DNA from: Streptomyces sp. NBC_01233
GTDB taxonomy: Bacteria > Actinomycetota > Actinomycetes > Streptomycetales > Streptomycetaceae
Assembly (NCBI RefSeq): GCF_035989305.1
Contig: NZ_CP108514.1
Coordinates: 3,534,501 to 3,598,500 of the forward strand
Reading direction: 5' to 3'
DNA: 64,000 nt
A program made the position numbers and the translations under genes. How positions within the stretch are numbered: position 1 is the stretch's first letter; the number at the start of each line of letters is the position of its first letter. This document shows positions 2,236 to 21,461 of the stretch, one piece after another. Under the pieces are notes generated by a model. The model saw only the letters and a list, made by a program, of their open reading frames with translations. It made no database searches and was not told the DNA's origin.

Positions 2236-2874
2236 TCACGCCGCGCCCGTCTCGGCCTCGTAGTGGGTCTGGGCGCGGTCCAGGATGTCGTCCGGGTCGC
2301 AGCCCTGTGCTGCTAGCCAGTGGAGGACGTCGGCGATGAGATCAGCCACCGACTGCTCCACGGCCTGCGGGCGCCAGGCGGCGGGAGGGTGCGGGCTATC
2401 GGAGAGACCGCGGTAGGCCGCCAGGACGGCCGCTCCGCGTTGCACCCGACGGTACTGCCGGTCCGGCTGGAGTGCGAGTTCGCACCAGACCGCCTTGCCG
2501 GTTGCCGTCAGAACCGTGCCCCAGTCGACCGCCAGCGCAGCCAGCAGGTGCAGGCCCCTGCCGGACTCTTCTTCACGGGACGGCCGCTCCATCACGGGGG
2601 TGGTGTGGCTCTTGTCGTGGATCTCTACTCGAAGACGTGCCTCGGCAGGCTCTGACTCCATGACCAGCGTCGCGGACGTGCCCGCACCCACATGCTTGAT
2701 CACATTGGCCGTGAGTTCCGTGACGGCCAGCTGCGCATCTTCAGCGAGGGCCGGGAGGCCCCAGACAACAAGTTGATCTCTGACGATGCGTCGCAGGAGA
2801 CACAGTTCCGCAGCCTCCGCCGTGAACGGCAGAACACAGCGGGACCGGCGGTCGACAGACGGATATCCACTCAT
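2236..2874 (-). CDS. HATPase_c_2 anti-sigma-like ATP-binding regulatory protein
   Basis: 212 aa from the second in-frame ATG, which has GGGAGGGAG 4 nt upstream; an ATG 15 nt further up is less likely. The N box (AVTELTANVIKHV) and G box (EESGRGLHLLAALA) of the GHKL/RsbW-like ATPase fold are present. A C-terminal extension of about 70 residues is not part of that fold. In Streptomyces such single-domain ATPases sit beside XRE/DUF5753 and DUF397 genes (WhiJ/abaA-type loci) and are thought to act as regulators by protein-protein contact. It is divergent from that pair here. Confidence 0.88.
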   Translation of the reverse strand: MSGYPSVDRRSRCVLPFTAEAAELCLLRRIVRDQLVVWGLPALAEDAQLAVTELTANVIKHVGAGTSATLVMESEPAEARLRVEIHDKSHTTPVMERPSREEESGRGLHLLAALAVDWGTVLTATGKAVWCELALQPDRQYRRVQRGAAVLAAYRGLSDSPHPPAAWRPQAVEQSVADLIADVLHWLAAQGCDPDDILDRAQTHYEAETGAA

Positions 2875-2960
2875 GGAGCTCCCTCCCATGCCACGACAGC
2901 ACCGGCACCAGCCGTATCCGTACGACTGCGCTGCGTAGCGTCACGAGTGGAGTATCGCAT

Positions 2961-2987
2961 TGAGAAGTCTCACCATGTAACTTCTCA
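2961..2987. promoter_or_regulatory. Inverted repeat in divergent promoter region
   Basis: TGAGAAGT and ACTTCTCA form a perfect 8-bp inverted repeat separated by 11 nt. It lies in the 213-bp gap between the HATPase gene and the divergent XRE/DUF5753 gene. The position and near two-turn spacing suit a binding site for the dimeric XRE regulator encoded next door, which is inference. Confidence 0.4.
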
Positions 2988-3087
2988 CGAGAATCGTCCG
3001 GGTGAATCCCGACGGCGCAACGTCCGTCGCGCATAGCCTTGTTGCCTCCACTCCGGCAGCAGAACAGCACCTCGGGAGACGGTACGC

Positions 3088-3933
3088 ATGTCAGCCAGAG
3101 CAACCACCCGACGCCGACAGCTCGGGGCGACCATGCGCAAGCTGCGCGCCCGCGCGGGCATGACTCTGGAGGATGCCGGCCACCTCGTCGGAGTTTCCAA
3201 GGCAACCGTCAGCCGCTACGAGACTCAGGCAGGGCCGGTGAAGTGGCCCATCGTGGAGGCGTTGTGCCGCGAATACGGGGCCACGGATGCCGAGCTGAAG
3301 GCAGTCGTGGAGCTCGCGAAGGGCGCGAAGCGGCAAGGGTGGTGGAACTCCATCGCCGACTCGATTCCGGAAAGCATGAACCTGCTGCTCACCCTGGAGG
3401 ACGAGGCCGTGAGGGAGGACCACTTCAACTGCCTCTACGTTCCCGGGCTTCTCCAGACACGTGCCTACACAGAGGCCGTCCAGTACGCCTCGGAGATGAG
3501 GCTGCCGCCCGAGGAGATCGAACGGCTCGTCGATATCCGGATGAAGCGTCAGGAGATCCTCGACCGCCCCAAGCCACCGCACCTCTGGGCCATCCTCGAC
3601 GAGTCGGTGATCCGACGTGTTGTGGGCTCGCGACAGGTGATGAAAGCTCAGCTCGAGCGCCTCCTTGAGGCCAACGAGTCTCAGCACATCACCTTGCAGG
3701 TGCTGCCCTTCTCCAAGGGTGCGCACTCTGCCGCCATGGGCAGTTTCGTGATCATCGGCGGGCCCGAGCCATCCTTGGATGTCGTGTACGTGGACACTCA
3801 CGTAGGTTCGCTGTTCATGGAGCAGGACAAAGAGCTGGACCGCTACCGGCTTGCCTTCGAGTACCTCCGCGCACAAGCGTTGGACATGGCTGCATCATCA
3901 GCCCTAATCAAGCGTGTCCACGAGGAGTTGTAA
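3088..3933 (+). CDS. XRE-family regulator with DUF5753 (WhiJ/Scr1-like)
   Basis: 281 aa. The N-terminal helix-turn-helix lies at about residues 11-65 (GATMRKLRARAGMTLEDAGHL, then VSKATVSRYE). A long DUF5753 domain follows, with the typical NCLYVPGLLQTRAYTEAV segment. These are DNA-binding regulators of development and secondary metabolism in Streptomyces whose partners are DUF397 small proteins. The stop codon overlaps the start of the downstream DUF397 gene (TAATG), indicating translational coupling. The inverted repeat at 2961-2987 may be its operator. Confidence 0.93.
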   Translation: MSARATTRRRQLGATMRKLRARAGMTLEDAGHLVGVSKATVSRYETQAGPVKWPIVEALCREYGATDAELKAVVELAKGAKRQGWWNSIADSIPESMNLLLTLEDEAVREDHFNCLYVPGLLQTRAYTEAVQYASEMRLPPEEIERLVDIRMKRQEILDRPKPPHLWAILDESVIRRVVGSRQVMKAQLERLLEANESQHITLQVLPFSKGAHSAAMGSFVIIGGPEPSLDVVYVDTHVGSLFMEQDKELDRYRLAFEYLRAQALDMAASSALIKRVHEEL

Positions 3934-4139
3934 TGCACCTCATTTCACCGGCCATAGGCAGCGACGGCTGGGTCAAGTCCTCCTACAGCGGGGCCGAGCA
4001 TAGCGAGTGTGTCGAGGCCGCCCTCCTCGCCGGCTCAACCGCTGTGCGGGACTCCAAGCGACCGGCAGGAAGCACAATTTGGTTCAAGGATGCTGCCTGG
4101 CGCGCATTCTTGGACAGGCTGCACAACGACTGGGTCTAG
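3933..4139 (+). CDS. DUF397 small protein
   Basis: 68 aa, the usual size. It carries the DUF397 signature: WVKSSYSG near the N-terminus, a central CVEAA, VRDSKRP, and WFKDAAWRAFL at the end. DUF397 proteins accompany XRE/DUF5753 regulators and are believed to modulate them, possibly as antitoxin-like or co-regulator partners. It is translationally coupled to the preceding gene. Confidence 0.93.
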   Translation: MHLISPAIGSDGWVKSSYSGAEHSECVEAALLAGSTAVRDSKRPAGSTIWFKDAAWRAFLDRLHNDWV

Positions 4140-4221: not shown

Positions 4222-4857
4222 TCAGCGGAAGTACGTGATGCAGGCGGGCAGGCCGCTGATCTCGACGGTTACGAGATGGGAGTGGGCCCGCCAGTCGGCC
4301 GTCTCGATGACTTCCTCGTGTTCGTCGAAGGGGCAGCCGTCCACCGCGACACGGTGCACCCCGTTGGGCTGGTAGCCGAACCGTCGGGACACGGCCCGGG
4401 AAGCCGCGTTGTCGGCGAACGCGGTGGAGGTGACACGGGTAGCGCCAAGGCCGTCGAAGGCGAGGGCGAGGGCGGCGGCCCGCATCTGGGTTCCGTAGCC
4501 CTGTCCCTGGAACCGGCTGCCGAGCCAGAAGCCGGTGCGAGCTTCGCCGGTCGTGGCGAAGTGGCGGGCGGAGAGGTTCTGCTGCCCGATGACCTGCTCG
4601 CCATGGAAGACGGCGAGCAGGAGGCGCCAGCTGTCGTGGGTCCAGTCTCCTCGCGCCCACCAGTGGTTCTGCACGACGTTCCGCGCTCGCTCCGGTGGTG
4701 GTGCTGACGCCCAGGGCTGCGGGAAGTACACGGCCCCGTCGGGGACGACGCCTTCGGCGGCCACTTGGGCGAGGGCGTCGAGTTCGGTGTCCGTAGGGAG
4801 ACGGAGGATCAGGTCAGGCGTGGTGAGTTCCAGGCCGGTGATGGGCCAGTGGCGCAT
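4222..4857 (-). CDS. GNAT-family N-acetyltransferase
   Basis: 211 aa. It has a RimJ/RimL-like GNAT fold: TPDLILRLPTDTELDAL at the start, a central GFWLGSRFQGQGYGTQM acetyl-CoA pyrophosphate loop (Q/RxxGxG/A), and AFADNAASRAVSRRFGY for motif B. It would transfer an acetyl group from acetyl-CoA to an amine of unknown identity. It is the last gene of a minus-strand run (peptide, MBL, APH, VOC, GNAT), 15 nt after the VOC gene, so co-transcription with the peptide cassette is possible. Confidence 0.88.
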   Translation of the reverse strand: MRHWPITGLELTTPDLILRLPTDTELDALAQVAAEGVVPDGAVYFPQPWASAPPPERARNVVQNHWWARGDWTHDSWRLLLAVFHGEQVIGQQNLSARHFATTGEARTGFWLGSRFQGQGYGTQMRAAALALAFDGLGATRVTSTAFADNAASRAVSRRFGYQPNGVHRVAVDGCPFDEHEEVIETADWRAHSHLVTVEISGLPACITYFR

Positions 4858-4872: not shown

Positions 4873-5229
4873 TCAGGGCCCGTCGAGTCCGAAGATCGTG
4901 CCGAACGGGTCGACGAGCTGGCAGATGCGCCGGCCGGGTTCCACGTCGAGGGGGCCCCGGTGGTGGATGCAGCCAGCGTCCAGGAGGCGCTTGCGTTCGG
5001 TGTCGAGGTCTTCGGCGGGCCAGTACGGGACGGTGCTTCCACCGTGGGGGTTGGCTTTGGGGGACGCCTGGTGGAAGCCGAACTCGAGTCCGTCGAGGTC
5101 GAGCCAGGCGTAGACGGCGGTGCCGTTGATGTCGAGTTTGACCTCGGATCCGAAGATGTCGCCCCACCAACGGGCGGCGGCTTCGGGGTCGTCGACGAAG
5201 ACCATGACGGTGCGGATGCCGCGCAGCAC
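4873..5229 (-). CDS. VOC-family (glyoxalase/bleomycin-resistance fold) protein
   Basis: 118 aa with a GTG start preceded by AGGAG. A single vicinal-oxygen-chelate domain has two beta-alpha-beta-beta-beta modules: TVMVFVDDPEAAARWWGDIFG starts the first, and a C-terminal CQLVDPFGTIFGL ends the second. Family members bind metals or small molecules and include dioxygenases, isomerases and drug-binding resistance proteins. The substrate is unknown. It lies 50 nt downstream of the APH-like gene and 15 nt upstream of the GNAT gene on the same strand. Confidence 0.85.
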   Translation of the reverse strand: MLRGIRTVMVFVDDPEAAARWWGDIFGSEVKLDINGTAVYAWLDLDGLEFGFHQASPKANPHGGSTVPYWPAEDLDTERKRLLDAGCIHHRGPLDVEPGRRICQLVDPFGTIFGLDGP

Positions 5230-5279: not shown

Positions 5280-6149
5280 TCACTCGTGGGCGCCGTGCAG
5301 GGAACGTAGGCCGGTGGCGCCGGCGAACGCTGTCAGGGCGCGTCTGAGGGTGTGGTCGTTCCACTGGGCGCCGAGTTCGTTGACGTGGTGCAGGTAGGCG
5401 TGGCGGACCCAGCGGGGCGACAGGTGCGGCTCGTCGCTTGCGATGTAGGCGAGCGTGATGAGGTCGGCCAGCCCCGTGATGTCGGGGCGGAGGGTTTCGG
5501 CGTCGATGAGAGCCAGGTGCCCGTCGCCGCGTCGACGGACGTGCTCCGGCTTGAGGTCGAGGTGTCCGAGGGGGACGTGGTCGGGACCGTGAGCCTCTCG
5601 GACGAGCTGGAGAAGCCGATGCCAGCCGTCGGCGTCGTTGATCCACTCCGGGGGCGGGGCGTCGACGGCGGCGCCGGCGCGCCACCTCGCCATAGCCTCA
5701 ATGACCGCCGGATGCCAGCGGGCGGCGACCGTGTGGATCGCGGCAACCGCCCGGATCAGCTCGTCAAACGCATCAGTGCTGGTGAGGGTGACGGCCTGAT
5801 CCAGGTAGTCAACGAGCAGGGTCCGGGAGGTGTCACAGACGCGGTGCAGGTCCGGCAGGACGCACTCGCCGGCCAGCAGCTCATACGCGAGGACCTCGCC
5901 TTGGTAGGCGGCTTCGTCCGCGTGCCGCTTCAGGACCCGGCGGGGAGGGCTGCCGAGGGCGAAGACGGCGGTGCGGTAGCGGGCGGTGAGGCAGTACACC
6001 GGGCCCGGCTCGTTGTCGTGGTGGCGGGCGAGGATGACGTGGGCCTGGCGTTCGGCGGCGGCCCGGTCGGTGGTGAGCGGGGTGGCCAGCCACCCGTCGG
6101 GCCTTGTGCGGGCGGCGCCGTCCAGCGGCCCGGCGGGGGCGGTGGTCAT
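5280..6149 (-). CDS. APH-fold phosphotransferase-like protein
   Basis: 289 aa from an ATG with GGAG 8 nt upstream. The long N-terminal open frame above it overlaps the MBL gene and is discarded. The aminoglycoside phosphotransferase/choline-kinase fold shows in a nucleotide-site lysine (RVLKRH, Lys74), the Brenner loop GHLDLKPEH with catalytic Asp198, and a metal-binding LIDAE with Asp216. The usual Asn of the HxDxxxxN loop is replaced by His. ATGA overlap with the upstream MBL gene indicates translational coupling. It could phosphorylate the product of the cassette or be a resistance enzyme. APH-like proteins also occur as maturation enzymes in some RiPP pathways (class V lanthipeptides, thioamitides). 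Confidence 0.85.
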   Translation of the reverse strand: MTTAPAGPLDGAARTRPDGWLATPLTTDRAAAERQAHVILARHHDNEPGPVYCLTARYRTAVFALGSPPRRVLKRHADEAAYQGEVLAYELLAGECVLPDLHRVCDTSRTLLVDYLDQAVTLTSTDAFDELIRAVAAIHTVAARWHPAVIEAMARWRAGAAVDAPPPEWINDADGWHRLLQLVREAHGPDHVPLGHLDLKPEHVRRRGDGHLALIDAETLRPDITGLADLITLAYIASDEPHLSPRWVRHAYLHHVNELGAQWNDHTLRRALTAFAGATGLRSLHGAHE

Positions 6150-7645
6150 GCCGGGGTCTCCTGGTGGACTCCGAGCGCGGCGAGGCTGTGGGCGTAGCAG
6201 CGGGCGGCGAGGTCGGGGCGCTGGTGCTCGCCGTAGATCGCGAAGAGGGCGTAGACCGGGGAGTCGAGGTTCTCGCCGATGTGCCAGCCCTGGTACGAGC
6301 CGCCGACGACATCCCAGACCTGGGCGCGGCCGAGGAAGACGGCGGCCAGGTCCTGGAAGTAGATCTCGATGCCGAAGGGATAAGCGGCCATGGCCTCCTC
6401 CCTGCTGGTCGGCTCCGCCTTGTCCCACCTGGGTCCGGTGATGTTCCACGCGTAGGTGTCGACGTCACCGGGGCGGCCCGGCGGGTCGAGCAAGCGGAGT
6501 GCGGCGCGGTGGGCGCCGAGGGCGCCGTGGAGGTAGTCGTGAATGCTTGTAGCGAGGGCGCCGGTGCGGGTGGCGATCAGCTCGCGGGCCAGGCGGGGCA
6601 ACTCCTCGGCCACCAGAGTCTCGGCCTTCTCCCATTCCTCCTTGTCCAGGGGCGGGGTGACAGGCGTCGGCTCGACGCGCTGCGGGGAGTCGATGAACGA
6701 CGCGAGTGCGGCGAGGGCGGTCTGCTCCGCCACGGGGTCGGGGGTGACCCAGGCAACGCGGGAGGTGGTGAGCGGGCCGTCGCCGACCGGGACGGTCAGG
6801 CGGTCGCCGGGGCGGGGGCCGTGCACGCGGAAGAGGTGCTGGAGCTTGTTTGCGGTGGCGGCCAGGGCCTTGTGGTCGGCGTAGAGGAAGGGGCCGTGGG
6901 GGCTGCGCGGCGCGGTGAAGCCGTTGCCACACAGGGCGACGTCGCGAACGCCGTCCAGGGGCTTGAGGTAGTCGATGAGCAGACCGTTGAGGATCTGGAC
7001 GCCGGTGGTGCGGTTGCGGGGGCCATCTAGGCCGGGGAGCAGATTGTTGTCAGCGCCGAGCGCTCCGAAGGGGACGGTCTGGGCATTGTTCGAGACGACC
7101 GCGAGCCTGGGCGGGGCGAGGGCGCCCTGGGCCAGCTGCTCGATGTAGAGGTCGGAGACGTCCGCGTCGACGCCGATGAAGACGTCGTTCCCGGTGGTGC
7201 CGGACAGGCGTACCAGGGGCTGGGAGACGCGCTTCTCCCAGAAGAGGGTGCGGGCGCCGGCAGGGTAGAGGGTGATCTCGATGTCGCCGACGTGCAGCGG
7301 CTGGGTGTGGTCCAGGCGATGAACGGCGAAGCCCAGGGCCTCGATCGCGTCGGTGACGGCGGCCGGGGTGGTGGTGCCGGTGTAGACCGGAACGGTGCGG
7401 GCGAGGAGGTCCAGAGAGGGCAGGTGGAAGTGGTCCAGGTGCTCGTGGCTGAGGATCACGGCGTTCGGGGCGGGCATGCCCTGGGTGTCCACGGTGCGGG
7501 GCGGCCAGATCGCGAACTCCAGGCTCCCGGCTCCGAAGGCGGGCGCAAGGATCGGGTCGAGGAGGACGGAGGAGAGGCCGTCGGTGATGTGCCAGGTCTG
7601 GTGGCCCAGGAAGGTCAGTTCCAGGCCGACGGGGGCGGCTGCCAT
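6146..7645 (-). CDS. MBL-fold metallo-hydrolase, UlaG-like, with extra C-terminal domain
   Basis: 499 aa from an ATG with AAAGGAG 6 nt upstream. The open frame extends further up but has no such signal and would swallow a hairpin and the peptide gene. The N-terminal half is a metallo-beta-lactamase fold: FLGHQTWHITDG opens it and SHEHLDHFH (His67, His69, Asp71, His72) is the metal motif. The C-terminal ~200 residues (containing YAWNITGPRWDKAE and GWHIGENLDSPVYALFAIYG) are not part of that fold and I do not recognise them. It lies between a 44-aa peptide gene and an APH-like gene. The substrate is unknown, and hydrolysis or processing of a modified peptide is only an inference. Confidence 0.85.
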   Translation of the reverse strand: MAAAPVGLELTFLGHQTWHITDGLSSVLLDPILAPAFGAGSLEFAIWPPRTVDTQGMPAPNAVILSHEHLDHFHLPSLDLLARTVPVYTGTTTPAAVTDAIEALGFAVHRLDHTQPLHVGDIEITLYPAGARTLFWEKRVSQPLVRLSGTTGNDVFIGVDADVSDLYIEQLAQGALAPPRLAVVSNNAQTVPFGALGADNNLLPGLDGPRNRTTGVQILNGLLIDYLKPLDGVRDVALCGNGFTAPRSPHGPFLYADHKALAATANKLQHLFRVHGPRPGDRLTVPVGDGPLTTSRVAWVTPDPVAEQTALAALASFIDSPQRVEPTPVTPPLDKEEWEKAETLVAEELPRLARELIATRTGALATSIHDYLHGALGAHRAALRLLDPPGRPGDVDTYAWNITGPRWDKAEPTSREEAMAAYPFGIEIYFQDLAAVFLGRAQVWDVVGGSYQGWHIGENLDSPVYALFAIYGEHQRPDLAARCYAHSLAALGVHQETPA

Positions 7646-7689
7646 GACGAACTCCTTTGCACGGTCGGTCAGGGTTGCCGGGGGTGTGA

Positions 7690-7721
7690 CGCGGAGGGGG
7701 ACATCGGACGCCCCCTCCGCG
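7690..7721 (-). terminator. Stem-loop between peptide gene and MBL gene
   Basis: A perfect 11-bp GC-rich stem (CGCGGAGGGGG pairing with CCCCCTCCGCG) encloses a 10-nt loop. It lies 22 nt after the peptide stop and 44 nt before the MBL start. There is no T-tract. Such a hairpin could act as a partial terminator or 3' stabiliser so that the peptide message exceeds that of the downstream enzymes, a layout common in bacteriocin and RiPP operons. Confidence 0.65.
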
Positions 7722-7743
7722 CCGGTACGCCGATCGGCAGGAT

Positions 7744-7878
7744 CTACCGGTGATAGGTGGTCGGGGAGTTGTTGGTCGTGCCAGTCGCGGCGAACGCCGT
7801 CACGCGCTGCTGAAGCCTGCGGACGGCCTCGGCGGTAACGGTCTGGCTGGTCTTCATCGGGGGCTTCACGCGGTGCAT
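7744..7878 (-). CDS. 44-aa peptide, candidate RiPP-like precursor
   Basis: This ORF encodes 44 residues beginning MHRVKPPMKTSQ and ending TTNNSPTTYHR. GGAGG lies 6 nt before the ATG, the best ribosome binding site in this part of the window. The middle (TAEAVRRLQQRVTAF) looks like an amphipathic helix suited to a leader, and the last ~14 residues are rich in Thr, Asn, Ser and Pro with a terminal YHR. There is no Cys. It is followed by a perfect stem-loop and then an MBL enzyme and an APH-fold protein on the same strand. The arrangement suggests a precursor peptide and its maturation enzymes, but I do not recognise the family. It could instead be a regulatory leader ORF. Confidence 0.6.
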   Translation of the reverse strand: MHRVKPPMKTSQTVTAEAVRRLQQRVTAFAATGTTNNSPTTYHR

Positions 7879-7985
7879 CGCGTACCTCCATCACTTGATC
7901 TTCGACGGCTGCGAATGCATCCGCCGTTCCCCGCCTCACTGAGGGGGCGACACCACCCTTTGTACGGGTTGGCGTTGTTCCAACG

Positions 7986-8040: not shown

Positions 8041-8886
8041 TCACGCGATGGTGTCGATGGCGGCGGTGATCGCGGAACGGGCTGCCGCCCCATAGATGGC
8101 CCGTCCAGCCAGTTCACCGAAGGCTCTCGCGTACAGCGAGATCTCCCCTGGCGATGTGATGGTGACGCGGGCCGACAGCAACTCGATGCCAACCTGAAGG
8201 TCGTCGTAGATGGTGAAACTCTCCAGCGTCCACAGTGGCCGTTCGGTTCTGACGGGGAGAATCCCGAGGGAGACCGACGGCAGGGACATGACTTCTAGGA
8301 GATACGCGAGCTGCTCGGCCGTGGTGGCGGCTGGTCCGATCCCTGAGTGGAGGACCGATTCCTCCACGAGCAGCGCGAAGCGGTGGCGGCCATCCCGGAT
8401 CACTTGTGACCGGGCCACTCGGGCTGCGGCTGCTTCTTCCACGTCGGTGGCGATCTGGTGGAGGGCGCCGTAAGCACCCAGGACAGCACGCGCGTATCTC
8501 TCGGTCTGGAGCAAGCCGGGTACCACGTTGGAGCAGTACACCCGGAACGATCGCGTGCGCTCGAAGAGGGGCACGACTTCCTGCTGAAGGTGGCGGAGGC
8601 CAGCCCGGTTCAGCCTCTTCCACTGCACGTACATGGAGTCGGCGGTACGGGCAGCGGCAATCAGGTCAGCGGACTGGTCCTCAGCACCACACGCCCGGCA
8701 CCAGGCGCGTATGTCGGCATCGGACGGCACAGCCCTCGCATGTTCGATGCGGGAGGTCTTCGCAGGGTCCCAGCCGCAGGCAACGGATAGTTCGTGCCCG
8801 GCCAGCCCAGCGTCCAGGCGCATGTCCCGCAGCCGTGCCGCGAGTGCGGAACGGGCTGCCTGGACGCTGGACAGAGGGGAGGGCAT
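8041..8886 (-). CDS. XRE-family regulator with DUF5753
   Basis: 281 aa. The helix-turn-helix is at about residues 14-60 (ALAARLRDMRLDAGL, WDPAKTSRIEH). A DUF5753 domain follows with CSNVVPGLLQTERYARAVL and the TLESFTIYDDLQ segment. It is a paralogue in type of the regulator at 3088-3933. It sits directly upstream of the peptide/MBL/APH cassette on the same strand, 162 nt before the peptide gene, and directly downstream of a DUF6879 gene, so it is a plausible cassette regulator. Confidence 0.92.
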   Translation of the reverse strand: MPSPLSSVQAARSALAARLRDMRLDAGLAGHELSVACGWDPAKTSRIEHARAVPSDADIRAWCRACGAEDQSADLIAAARTADSMYVQWKRLNRAGLRHLQQEVVPLFERTRSFRVYCSNVVPGLLQTERYARAVLGAYGALHQIATDVEEAAAARVARSQVIRDGRHRFALLVEESVLHSGIGPAATTAEQLAYLLEVMSLPSVSLGILPVRTERPLWTLESFTIYDDLQVGIELLSARVTITSPGEISLYARAFGELAGRAIYGAAARSAITAAIDTIA

Positions 8887-8916: not shown

Positions 8917-9450
8917 TCAGACCTTGTAGTCAGCGAACGGTACGGCGCGCTTCCACACGGTCTCGAACGCGGTGGCACAAAGGTCCGCCACACGCGGGTC
9001 CTCGCACATCTCCCCGCCCGCGGAGCCCCCGTTGCCTGTGAAGTGGTTCCACCGGATGACACGGTCGTCAATGAGCCAGAAGTCATTGCCAGGCAGTGCG
9101 ATGTCCGACGCCTCGCGACGGGGCAGGTACCGCACTTGTTCCCCGGCCGCGATGTTGACCGAGGCGCCCGCGTGGCCGTACCGGGCATAGTCGCTCAGCG
9201 GCTCGGACACGATGCGAGCCCGTCGGACCTGCACGCCCCGGGCTACGGTCCGACGGACCAGGTCGACCCACCCGCGCCAGTAGTCGGAATCCGGGTCGGT
9301 CTCGCGCTCCCCGGTGCTCAGCCACGAGGCGAAGCCCGCGGACTCGTGCGCGACGCCGTACGCGTCGCGCATCTCCAGGTGGACGGCTGAGTACTGTGCT
9401 GAGTCGAGCAGTTCGTCAAAGCTCGGTACGGGCTCGTTGTTCCGCGGCAT
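8917..9450 (-). CDS. DUF6879-family protein
   Basis: 177 aa with GGGAGG 6 nt upstream of the ATG. It shows the all-alpha/beta pattern of DUF6879 proteins: DELLDSAQYSAVHLEMRDAYG near the start, then a mixed region ending with DFWLIDDRVIRWNHF and VWKRAVPF. These proteins are widespread in Streptomyces beside XRE/DUF5753 regulators, and their function is unknown. The start overlaps the end of the upstream 82-aa gene by 35 nt and the next gene begins 30 nt later, consistent with one transcript. Confidence 0.8.
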   Translation of the reverse strand: MPRNNEPVPSFDELLDSAQYSAVHLEMRDAYGVAHESAGFASWLSTGERETDPDSDYWRGWVDLVRRTVARGVQVRRARIVSEPLSDYARYGHAGASVNIAAGEQVRYLPRREASDIALPGNDFWLIDDRVIRWNHFTGNGGSAGGEMCEDPRVADLCATAFETVWKRAVPFADYKV

Positions 9451-17534: not shown

Positions 17535-18342
17535 CCTGGACCACCACCTTCCGCGTCGCCGCCGACTGCAGCAGCCGCCCGGCGCCCAGCAGTACGAGCG
17601 CCCACCCGGCCTGGAACCCCAGCGCCCCGGCCGCGCCCCCGGCCCCCGCGTGCTTGCCCAGCAGGACGTCCATCGGAACCTGCAGCATCGCCGCCCACGG
17701 CAGGACGCGCACGAACTCGCCGAAGTCGCCCGGGAAGACGGTCAGCGGCAGCAGCATCCCGGAGAAGAAGATCGAGACGACGGTGGCCATCATGTTGATC
17801 CCGGACCCGTCCATCAGCCAGAAGGCGAGCAGCCCCAGCAGGTAGCGCACCGCGAAGCTCACCACCAGTCCGAGCGCGACGGAGAGCAGGAACAGCAGCC
17901 AGCGCAGCGGATCGGTGGGCAGCGCCAACCGGAACGCCAGCGCCCCCGCCACCAGCGGGACCAGCCCGCGCCCCAGCAGCTGGAAGCCCGCCCGGCCCAT
18001 GTCGGCCGCGAGCCACCACATCTGAAGGTCCGCCGGCCGGTACAGGTCGACGGCGATGTCGCCCGTGCGCACCCGCTCCTGGATCTCCTCCTGGAAGCCG
18101 CCACCGATCAACGCCCCTGCGGCGAGCAGCGACTGGCTCACCCACACGAAGGTCAGGGCCTGCGCCTGGCCGTAGCCGCCGAGCCCCGGACGCTCGTCCC
18201 ACAGCGCGATGTACGTGTACGCGACGATGAATCCGAACGTGGTGTTGGTGAACACCCCGGCCGCGGTCGCCGTCCCGTAGGTGGCGTACCGCCTGAATCC
18301 CCCTGCCGCGACCGCCAGGTAGAGACGCACTCTCCGGCGCAC
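17527..18342 (-). CDS. ABC-2 family permease (COG4587-like)
   Basis: 271 aa with a GTG start and GGAGGG 5 nt upstream. Six predicted spans include TATAAGVFTNTTFGFIVAYTY and FLLSVALGLVVSFAVRYLLG. The cytosolic loop EEIQERVRTGDIAVDLYRPADLQ parallels the ...DGSLDTMLVRP loop of the partner permease, as expected for paralogous half-channels. It is the first gene of the ABC operon and divergent from the penicillin-binding protein gene across 174 nt. Confidence 0.9.
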   Translation of the reverse strand: MRRRVRLYLAVAAGGFRRYATYGTATAAGVFTNTTFGFIVAYTYIALWDERPGLGGYGQAQALTFVWVSQSLLAAGALIGGGFQEEIQERVRTGDIAVDLYRPADLQMWWLAADMGRAGFQLLGRGLVPLVAGALAFRLALPTDPLRWLLFLLSVALGLVVSFAVRYLLGLLAFWLMDGSGINMMATVVSIFFSGMLLPLTVFPGDFGEFVRVLPWAAMLQVPMDVLLGKHAGAGGAAGALGFQAGWALVLLGAGRLLQSAATRKVVVQGG

Positions 18343-21025: not shown

Positions 21026-21346
21026 TCAGTGACCGGAAGTCACCTTCAGCCCCACCACGGCGACCAGCAGCAGACAGATGAAGAAGATCCGGGAGGCGGT
21101 GACGGGCTCGCCCAGCACCGCCATGCCGAGCACGGCCGCGCCGGCGGCGCCGATGCCCACCCACACCCCGTACGCGGTACCGATGGGCAGGGTCTTCGCG
21201 GCGTAGGACAGCAGCACCATGCTGGCGACGATCCCGGCGCCCGTGAACACACTGGGCCAGAGCCGGGTGAAGCCCTCGGTGAATTTCATGCCGATCGACC
21301 AGCCGACTTCGATCACACCGGCGACAACAAGAAGAACCCAGGCCAT
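21026..21346 (-). CDS. gdx: SMR-family guanidinium exporter (Gdx/SugE-like)
   Basis: 106 aa with GGAGG 7 nt upstream. Four TM helices of the small multidrug resistance family: MAWVLLVVAGVIEVGWSI carries the conserved membrane Glu13, followed by a WPSVFTGAGIVASMVLLSYAA helix and GTAYGVWVGIGAAGAAVLGM with the family GTAYAVWxG signature. The WSIGMK motif after the Glu is typical of the SugE/Gdx subtype rather than EmrE. The mRNA leader carries a sequence that closely matches the guanidine-III riboswitch, supporting guanidinium/H+ antiport as the function. Confidence 0.9.
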   Translation of the reverse strand: MAWVLLVVAGVIEVGWSIGMKFTEGFTRLWPSVFTGAGIVASMVLLSYAAKTLPIGTAYGVWVGIGAAGAAVLGMAVLGEPVTASRIFFICLLLVAVVGLKVTSGH

Positions 21347-21380
21347 GACGGCACCTCCGAGACATCGAGCGATACGGGGT

Positions 21381-21420
21381 GCGTCGTCTTGTCGTACCCG
21401 GTACGGCGCGTCTCGTCGGG
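21381..21420 (-). ncRNA. Guanidine-III (ykkC-III) riboswitch
   Basis: The 40-nt minus-strand segment runs CCCGACGAG ... GCGCCGTACC ... ACAAGACG ... CGC. As I recall the characterised class III guanidine aptamer pseudoknot, it has CCGGACGAG, GCGCCGUACC and GGACAAGACG in the same order and spacing. It ends 34 nt before the SMR gene start, and GGAGG lies between, so ligand binding could expose or shield translation signals. The match was judged by eye against the remembered consensus. Confidence 0.85.
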
Positions 21421-21461
21421 TTCTCCTCCACCGTAGCAAAAGGCGGGCAAAGGGCAGCGAA

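Follow-up and report, generated by a model that had tools for sequence, protein, structure and literature searches.

A question raised by one stretch of the 10.3 Mb genome of Streptomyces sp. NBC_01233 is whether a very small gene, set ahead of genes for a metallo-β-lactamase (MBL)-fold protein and an aminoglycoside phosphotransferase (APH)-fold kinase-like protein, encodes the precursor of a peptide product or has some other role. The window, by which we mean the whole stretch of 64,000 nucleotides analysed (contig NZ_CP108514.1, positions 3,534,501 to 3,598,500), carries this cassette on its reverse strand, and we put at about 0.74 the probability that the cassette makes an undescribed ribosomally synthesized and post-translationally modified peptide (RiPP) with the 44-residue peptide as its precursor. 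The elements concerned are these:

7744..7878, reverse strand: gene for a 44-residue precursor-like peptide, MHRVKPPMKTSQTVTAEAVRRLQQRVTAFAATGTTNNSPTTYHR, with the conserved middle VRRLQQRVTAFAATG and the C-terminus PTTYHR
7885..7889, reverse strand: Shine–Dalgarno-like GGAGG, 6 nt ahead of the peptide ATG
7690..7721, reverse strand: perfect 11 bp inverted repeat (hairpin) between the peptide and MBL genes
6146..7645, reverse strand: gene for an MBL-fold protein of 499 residues, its C-terminal domain without an assigned family
5280..6149, reverse strand: gene for an APH-fold kinase-like protein of 289 residues, overlapping the MBL gene by 4 nt (6146–6149)

A preliminary description of this DNA had reported the 44-residue open reading frame (ORF) with a well-spaced GGAGG, the perfect 11 bp stem-loop and the 4 nt overlap of the enzyme genes, all of which are borne out; none of 200 dinucleotide shuffles of the peptide–MBL intergenic stretch reached an 11 bp stem. 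The peptide is annotated as a hypothetical protein in four plasmid copies.

The same description had recognized the layout of a precursor plus maturation enzymes, and had said that MBL homologues with no short ORF ahead of them would count against it. Merging duplicates by contig and place left 21 separate loci whose MBL relative is intact, and a short ORF is present in every one. The MBL relatives without the ORF (L049, L054 and L055) are remnants that have lost the MBL N-terminus and retain only C-terminal parts, with no peptide seen within 1.5 kb upstream. At a further, decayed locus (L009, 3858–4345) the peptide is intact and the MBL gene breaks off after about 38 residues, continuing into what is left of a GNAT gene. 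Because of this family evidence the layout is more than chance. The genome surveys were samples in which at most four candidates were scored per genome; within them the MBL profile matched 8 of 343 Streptomyces genomes and, at the level of the family, 10 of 394, of which G1173 and G1095 hold remnants; a scan of the genome contigs with the MBL as query gave eight loci. An Actinomycetota sample of 346 genomes (E-value 1e-15) yielded an intact match in the window genome only, two other matches being N-terminal MBL fragments, and Caenimonas, the seed genome, was the sole match among 349 genomes sampled from its own phylum (E-value 1e-25). By tblastn, 5 of 72,556 plasmid records were positive, one of them a remnant. 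On these comparisons the cassette is a real, rare and well-conserved family.

Four types of locus can be distinguished. Type A comprises 11 loci (the window, L002–L007, L010, L045, L014 and L053) with the peptide ending PTTYHR, PTYYHR or PVTYHR; type B has six (L015, L046, L047, L048, L051 and L052), ending TYHH, SYHH or YTYHR; type C has three (L016, L017 and L050), ending AYTR, HYVR or HYTR; and type D is the single locus L008 of the betaproteobacterium Caenimonas koreensis. The type C ORFs were chosen by eye among those with a possible ribosome-binding site, and rest on position and the shared ending. In a midpoint-rooted tree of 20 MBL sequences from 17 loci, those of the TYH/SYH-type loci, Caenimonas included, cluster in one clade (support 1.0) that excludes the YTR/YVR type.

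The peptides themselves are strongly constrained. All 20 Streptomycetaceae peptides from intact loci have Tyr at position −3 and Arg or His as the last residue, so the conserved YHR end that had been anticipated is real and generalizes to Tyr-X-(Arg/His), with the variants TYHR, TYHH, SYHH, YTR and YVR. Seventeen positions are invariant across eight type A peptides (that of the decayed locus included), eight are common to 12 peptides of types A and B, and the lack of Cys noted earlier for the window peptide extends to all type A and B peptides aligned. Over the last 30 codons the window peptide compared with ten orthologues gives dN/dS values of 0–0.30, which places it under purifying selection. 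The 55 pairs taken together show 73 synonymous and 104 nonsynonymous differences in the last eight codons, and 125 and 119 respectively in codons −20 to −9, so rigidity is uneven at the peptide end, with change at the Ser/Ala, Asn/His and Thr positions and none at the P, Y, H and R. A search of 336 Streptomyces genomes with the peptide profile, a sample that overlaps the 343 searched with the MBL profile and is not identical to it, matched 15 genomes at E-values up to 0.01; the six strong matches (E-value below 1e-17) are all the type A and B genomes among the eight positive for the MBL, and the nine weak ones, eight of them inside frames of more than 500 residues, are taken as chance. Two of the features expected of a RiPP pathway are present: in types A and B an encoded precursor has a conserved recognition region and a core under protein-level selection, and the enzyme genes are consistently linked to the precursor, at all 21 intact-MBL loci and in 6/6 strong peptide matches.

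The kinase-like protein has no match in Pfam, and its identity rests on profile comparison. Set against 12 members of PF01636 from this genome, its profile gives a probability of 94.9 and an E-value of 4e-8 (reversed control, 0.07), with the Lys, the catalytic Asp and the metal Asp aligned. K74, E85, D198, D216 and E218 are invariant in 11 kinase sequences, so that the ATP-binding Lys (K74), catalytic Asp (D198) and metal-binding Asp (D216) of an APH-fold kinase are all present, and the Asn of the Brenner motif is replaced by His203 in all 11. These observations uphold the APH-fold assignment made at the outset. We give an even chance to the peptide being the substrate of the kinase, which might otherwise inactivate the product in the producer.

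The MBL-fold protein is more enigmatic. Pfam recognizes Lactamase_B_3 at residues 9–130 only (E-value 8e-9), and, as had been noticed, the C-terminal part has no Pfam family; profile comparisons with SCP2 (probability 2.2, one SCP2 locus, L131, left out) and with the alkyl-sulfatase C-terminal domain (probability 0.1) gave no match. Residues invariant in 20 MBL sequences include H69, D71, H72, H74, E137, R139 and D160, but the second MBL of type C has Asn in place of His67, no invariant His occurs at motif 3 or motif 5, and His275 is kept only in type A, L015 and L008. The site is therefore not that of a canonical MBL hydrolase, with HxHxDH and the motif-3 and motif-5 His residues, and the earlier label 'UlaG-like' fits only loosely. 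Among solved structures the MBL profile best matches the hydrolases NAPE-PLD (E-value 1.2e-6) and SaxA (1.2e-3), with weak matches to CmlA (0.013–0.015); NAPE-PLD, UlaG and SaxA resemble it over the first 80–90 residues only. The protein might oxidize the Tyr or might act by hydrolysis, and that it acts on the Tyr of the peptide at all is a proposal to which we give somewhat less than an even chance.

None of the known systems closest to the cassette accounts for it. In class V lanthipeptides and thioamitides the APH-fold kinase works with a HopA1-type lyase. Like the cassette, these systems include Streptomyces precursors encoded beside an APH-fold kinase involved in dehydration (PMC7794033, PMC9486802). 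The cassette peptides of types A and B, however, have no core Cys, an MBL stands in place of the lyase, and the kinase is too divergent for PF01636; a Pfam scan of eight window proteins found no match to HopA1, YcaO or flavoprotein families, a scan that did not take in every gene of every relative. For want of a core Cys, and of a HopA1-like lyase or YcaO among those eight proteins, we do not place the cassette in either class. In the pyrroloquinoline quinone (PQQ) pathway, as in the cassette, a short precursor with a conserved Tyr, PqqA, is paired with an MBL-fold protein, PqqB, which hydroxylates the Tyr, but the window MBL shows no homology to PqqB (hhalign probability 0.5, at least one PqqB sequence, L093, being incomplete) and the eight scanned window proteins include no radical SAM match. 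The third comparison is with CmlA-type diiron hydroxylases, which act on carrier-bound amino acids and in which the Glu of the GEH motif is a diiron ligand. Nine such proteins match the MBL domain over residues 7–172 (hhalign probability 98.2, E-value 4e-14), but the window MBL lacks the CmlA N-terminal domain and its invariant Glu137 is not aligned with the Glu of the GEH motif; on the diiron ligand set the protein does not belong with the CmlA group, and because of the Glu mismatch we do not claim a diiron enzyme. The preliminary description knew of no pathway pairing an APH-like protein with an MBL of this kind, and we found no MBL-plus-kinase RiPP pathway in the open-access literature, subscription papers and preprints lying outside that search, so that a description elsewhere is possible. 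The words 'lactamase' and 'metallo' do not occur in the main text of the decRiPPter paper (PMC7794033).

The RiPP-like cassette is thus most likely of an undescribed class, and the best reading of the Tyr-containing C-terminus is as the substrate of that class. The stretch around residues 19–33 would be the leader and the C-terminal PTTYHR the core, whose Tyr at −3 and basic final residue would make up the conserved substrate, and the hairpin would cause the precursor to be made in excess of the enzymes; we infer both the leader/core division and this role of the hairpin. The MBL-fold protein would use a non-canonical metal site to modify the core, the Tyr being the likeliest target, and the kinase-like protein would phosphorylate, or activate with ATP, the core or the product. 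The neighbouring VOC and GNAT proteins could serve in product tailoring or in self-protection, and an XRE regulator would control the locus. Tentatively, and with the odds slightly against so specific a scheme, we suggest a RiPP class across Actinomycetota and Pseudomonadota in which the MBL makes a new, probably redox, change to a C-terminal Tyr (TYH or SYH in the APH-linked forms), coupled to phosphoryl transfer of the APH or P-loop type, the very small product being exported as an antibiotic, metallophore or signal.

The genes around the cassette in the window, identified with Pfam, are:

4873..5229, reverse strand: VOC (glyoxalase/bleomycin-resistance fold) protein, downstream of the kinase gene
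4222..4857, reverse strand: GNAT acetyltransferase, downstream of the VOC gene
8041..8886, reverse strand: XRE/DUF5753 regulator, upstream of the peptide gene
8917..9450, reverse strand: DUF6879 protein, which also adjoins the cassette in L005 and L009

That the same-strand VOC and GNAT genes might extend the cassette had been suspected, and both recur among its relatives. Neighbourhoods were mapped for 10 of the 11 type A and all six type B loci; a VOC gene follows the kinase in all ten type A loci and is present, on the opposite strand, in three of the six of type B, a GNAT gene lies at the cassette end in eight of the ten type A loci, and three type B loci have a second kinase.

The loci of types C and D are organized differently, and bear on the question of export:

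L020, 7314–14228; L050, 6901–13401; L021, reverse strand: operons like type C, with peptide ends AYTR, HYTR and HYVR
L008, 1297–7899: type D operon of Caenimonas koreensis, with a GG-type peptide, HlyD, a C39-peptidase ABC exporter, MBL, kinase and histidine phosphatase

All three type C loci have two tandem MBLs, a P-loop kinase and an MFS exporter, and two also have a Stf0 sulfotransferase and an aldo-keto reductase (AKR). Since the type C loci have, behind the MBL, a kinase with a different fold, a phosphoryl-transfer or ATP-activation step may be needed. The Caenimonas genes lie in one row and overlap from the exporter onward. The peptide there has a GG motif and a tail beginning LTYH and ending GGGLTYHYQQGPN; its frame is of 148 residues from a TTG, and the 53-residue start at an ATG preceded by AAGGG is our choice. 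The HlyD and C39-peptidase ABC exporter recall GG-leader (NHLP/bacteriocin) export, but the exporter, with PF03412 at an E-value of 1e-32, falls below the cut-off of its best NCBIfam model, TIGR03796 (442 bits against 853), and the precursor, scanned without its first five residues, matched no NCBIfam model.

The main rival is that the peptide is a regulatory leader, after the model of the erm/cml-type attenuators: ribosomes stalling at the conserved C-terminus would refold the hairpin and switch on a resistance-type operon of MBL, APH, VOC and GNAT genes. The minimum free energy fold contains a strong hairpin in all 21 Streptomycetaceae peptide-to-MBL stretches, about 6 to 24 nt (by eye) past the short ORF. 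In the 20 stretches folded together with shuffles (19 intact loci and L009) its z-scores are −1.7 to −4.8; that of L015 was folded without them. The stem is uninterrupted for at least 10 bp in 15 of the 20 and is interrupted, or has a longer loop, in L003, L006, L016, L045 and L052, of which only L006 stands out in a test of uninterrupted stems (4/200 shuffles equally good, against 137/200 for L003, 23/200 for L016, 42/200 for L045 and 155/200 for L052, none of these four significant). In an alignment of 12 type A stretches 98.1 % of cells are paired, falling to 50–69 % with shifted partners, and both partners have changed in 5 of the 13 pairs; the covariation score was reached by 0/500 shuffles, the number of pair types by 42/500. 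On this alignment the hairpin is kept through compensatory changes. The strict conservation of the Tyr and last residues, and the APH, GNAT and VOC folds, typical of self-resistance, would suit a leader peptide as well. However, the middle of the peptide is also conserved, genes for export and tailoring occur in the type C operons, and the MBL ribosome-binding site lies outside the main hairpins (by eye), with no T-tract following except TTTT in L016. In Caenimonas the peptide gene is parted from the MBL gene by the HlyD and exporter genes, has a GG motif and lacks a comparable hairpin, which fits an exported product. We consider a leader peptide unlikely.

A little less likely again is a signal peptide, secreted or cytosolic, whose C-terminal fragment is sensed by the adjacent XRE regulator in the manner of RRNPP systems, the MBL and kinase being outputs or serving to activate or degrade the signal. 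A divergent XRE regulator of 430–440 residues with a long C-terminal part adjoins the peptide in 11 of the 16 type A and B loci mapped (type A has a divergent 439-residue XRE regulator plus a methyltransferase in six loci and another divergent XRE in two), it has a weak TPR match, some loci lie on plasmids, and the short conserved C-terminus resembles pheromones. The TPR match is weak indeed (Pfam E-value 0.034; best in PDB 0.16), a profile built from four XRE regulators retrieved no structure of a peptide sensor, and the window regulator is of another type, XRE/DUF5753 on the same strand where other loci have a different, divergently transcribed XRE. To our knowledge, RRNPP systems need neither an MBL nor a kinase. 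A defence or toxin–antitoxin module on mobile DNA, formed by the peptide, MBL and kinase, might be suggested by the plasmid records, the patchy spread (8/343 Streptomyces genomes) and the frequency of kinases in such systems, but is very improbable given the export genes of types C and D and the PADLOC results on window, L008 and L020 proteins, with no match for the peptide, four MBLs and two APH1 kinases, weak matches being confined to the P-loop kinase (IetA, TRIP13) and the second kinase of L022 (PD-T4-6).

Several observations weigh against a RiPP pathway all the same. The peptide C-terminus hardly varies, in contrast to many RiPP cores, and the order of peptide, hairpin and genes is also that of an attenuator. 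The MBL profile lies closest to hydrolases (NAPE-PLD), Glu137 is out of register with the CmlA Glu, and since the motif-3 His is not recognizable the chemistry cannot be read off. A C39 ABC exporter in Caenimonas and an MFS exporter in type C have no recognized counterpart, leader peptidase or exporter, in the mapped stretches of types A and B, and the 47 nt gap between the Caenimonas peptide and HlyD genes holds no comparably strong hairpin (−11 kcal/mol).

Other features of the window were noted. Adjoining the cassette is a WhiJ-type neighbourhood (2236–4139) in which an XRE/DUF5753 regulator (Pfam) sits between genes for an anti-sigma-like ATPase and a DUF397-like small protein (both by eye). 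Beyond it (102–2207) a cytosine-C5 DNA methyltransferase gene lies beside an opposite-strand HNH-like gene (by eye), possibly a restriction-modification pair. A Guanidine-III riboswitch (Rfam RF01763) directly 5′ of a small transporter gene, SMR-like by eye (21026–21447), is the ordinary layout of a guanidine exporter. The tRNA-Thr called by ARAGORN at 17892–17982 is not reported by the Rfam tRNA model at its cut-off and is possibly a false call.

If the cassette does specify a RiPP, it would represent a new class with a pair of maturation enzymes not found in the literature searched, and the substrate residue indicated is the Tyr at −3. An MBL, a kinase and a short ORF ending Y-x-R/H would then serve as bait for genome mining, and these small, easily expressed cassettes would provide another precedent, beside PQQ, for MBL-fold chemistry on a peptide Tyr.

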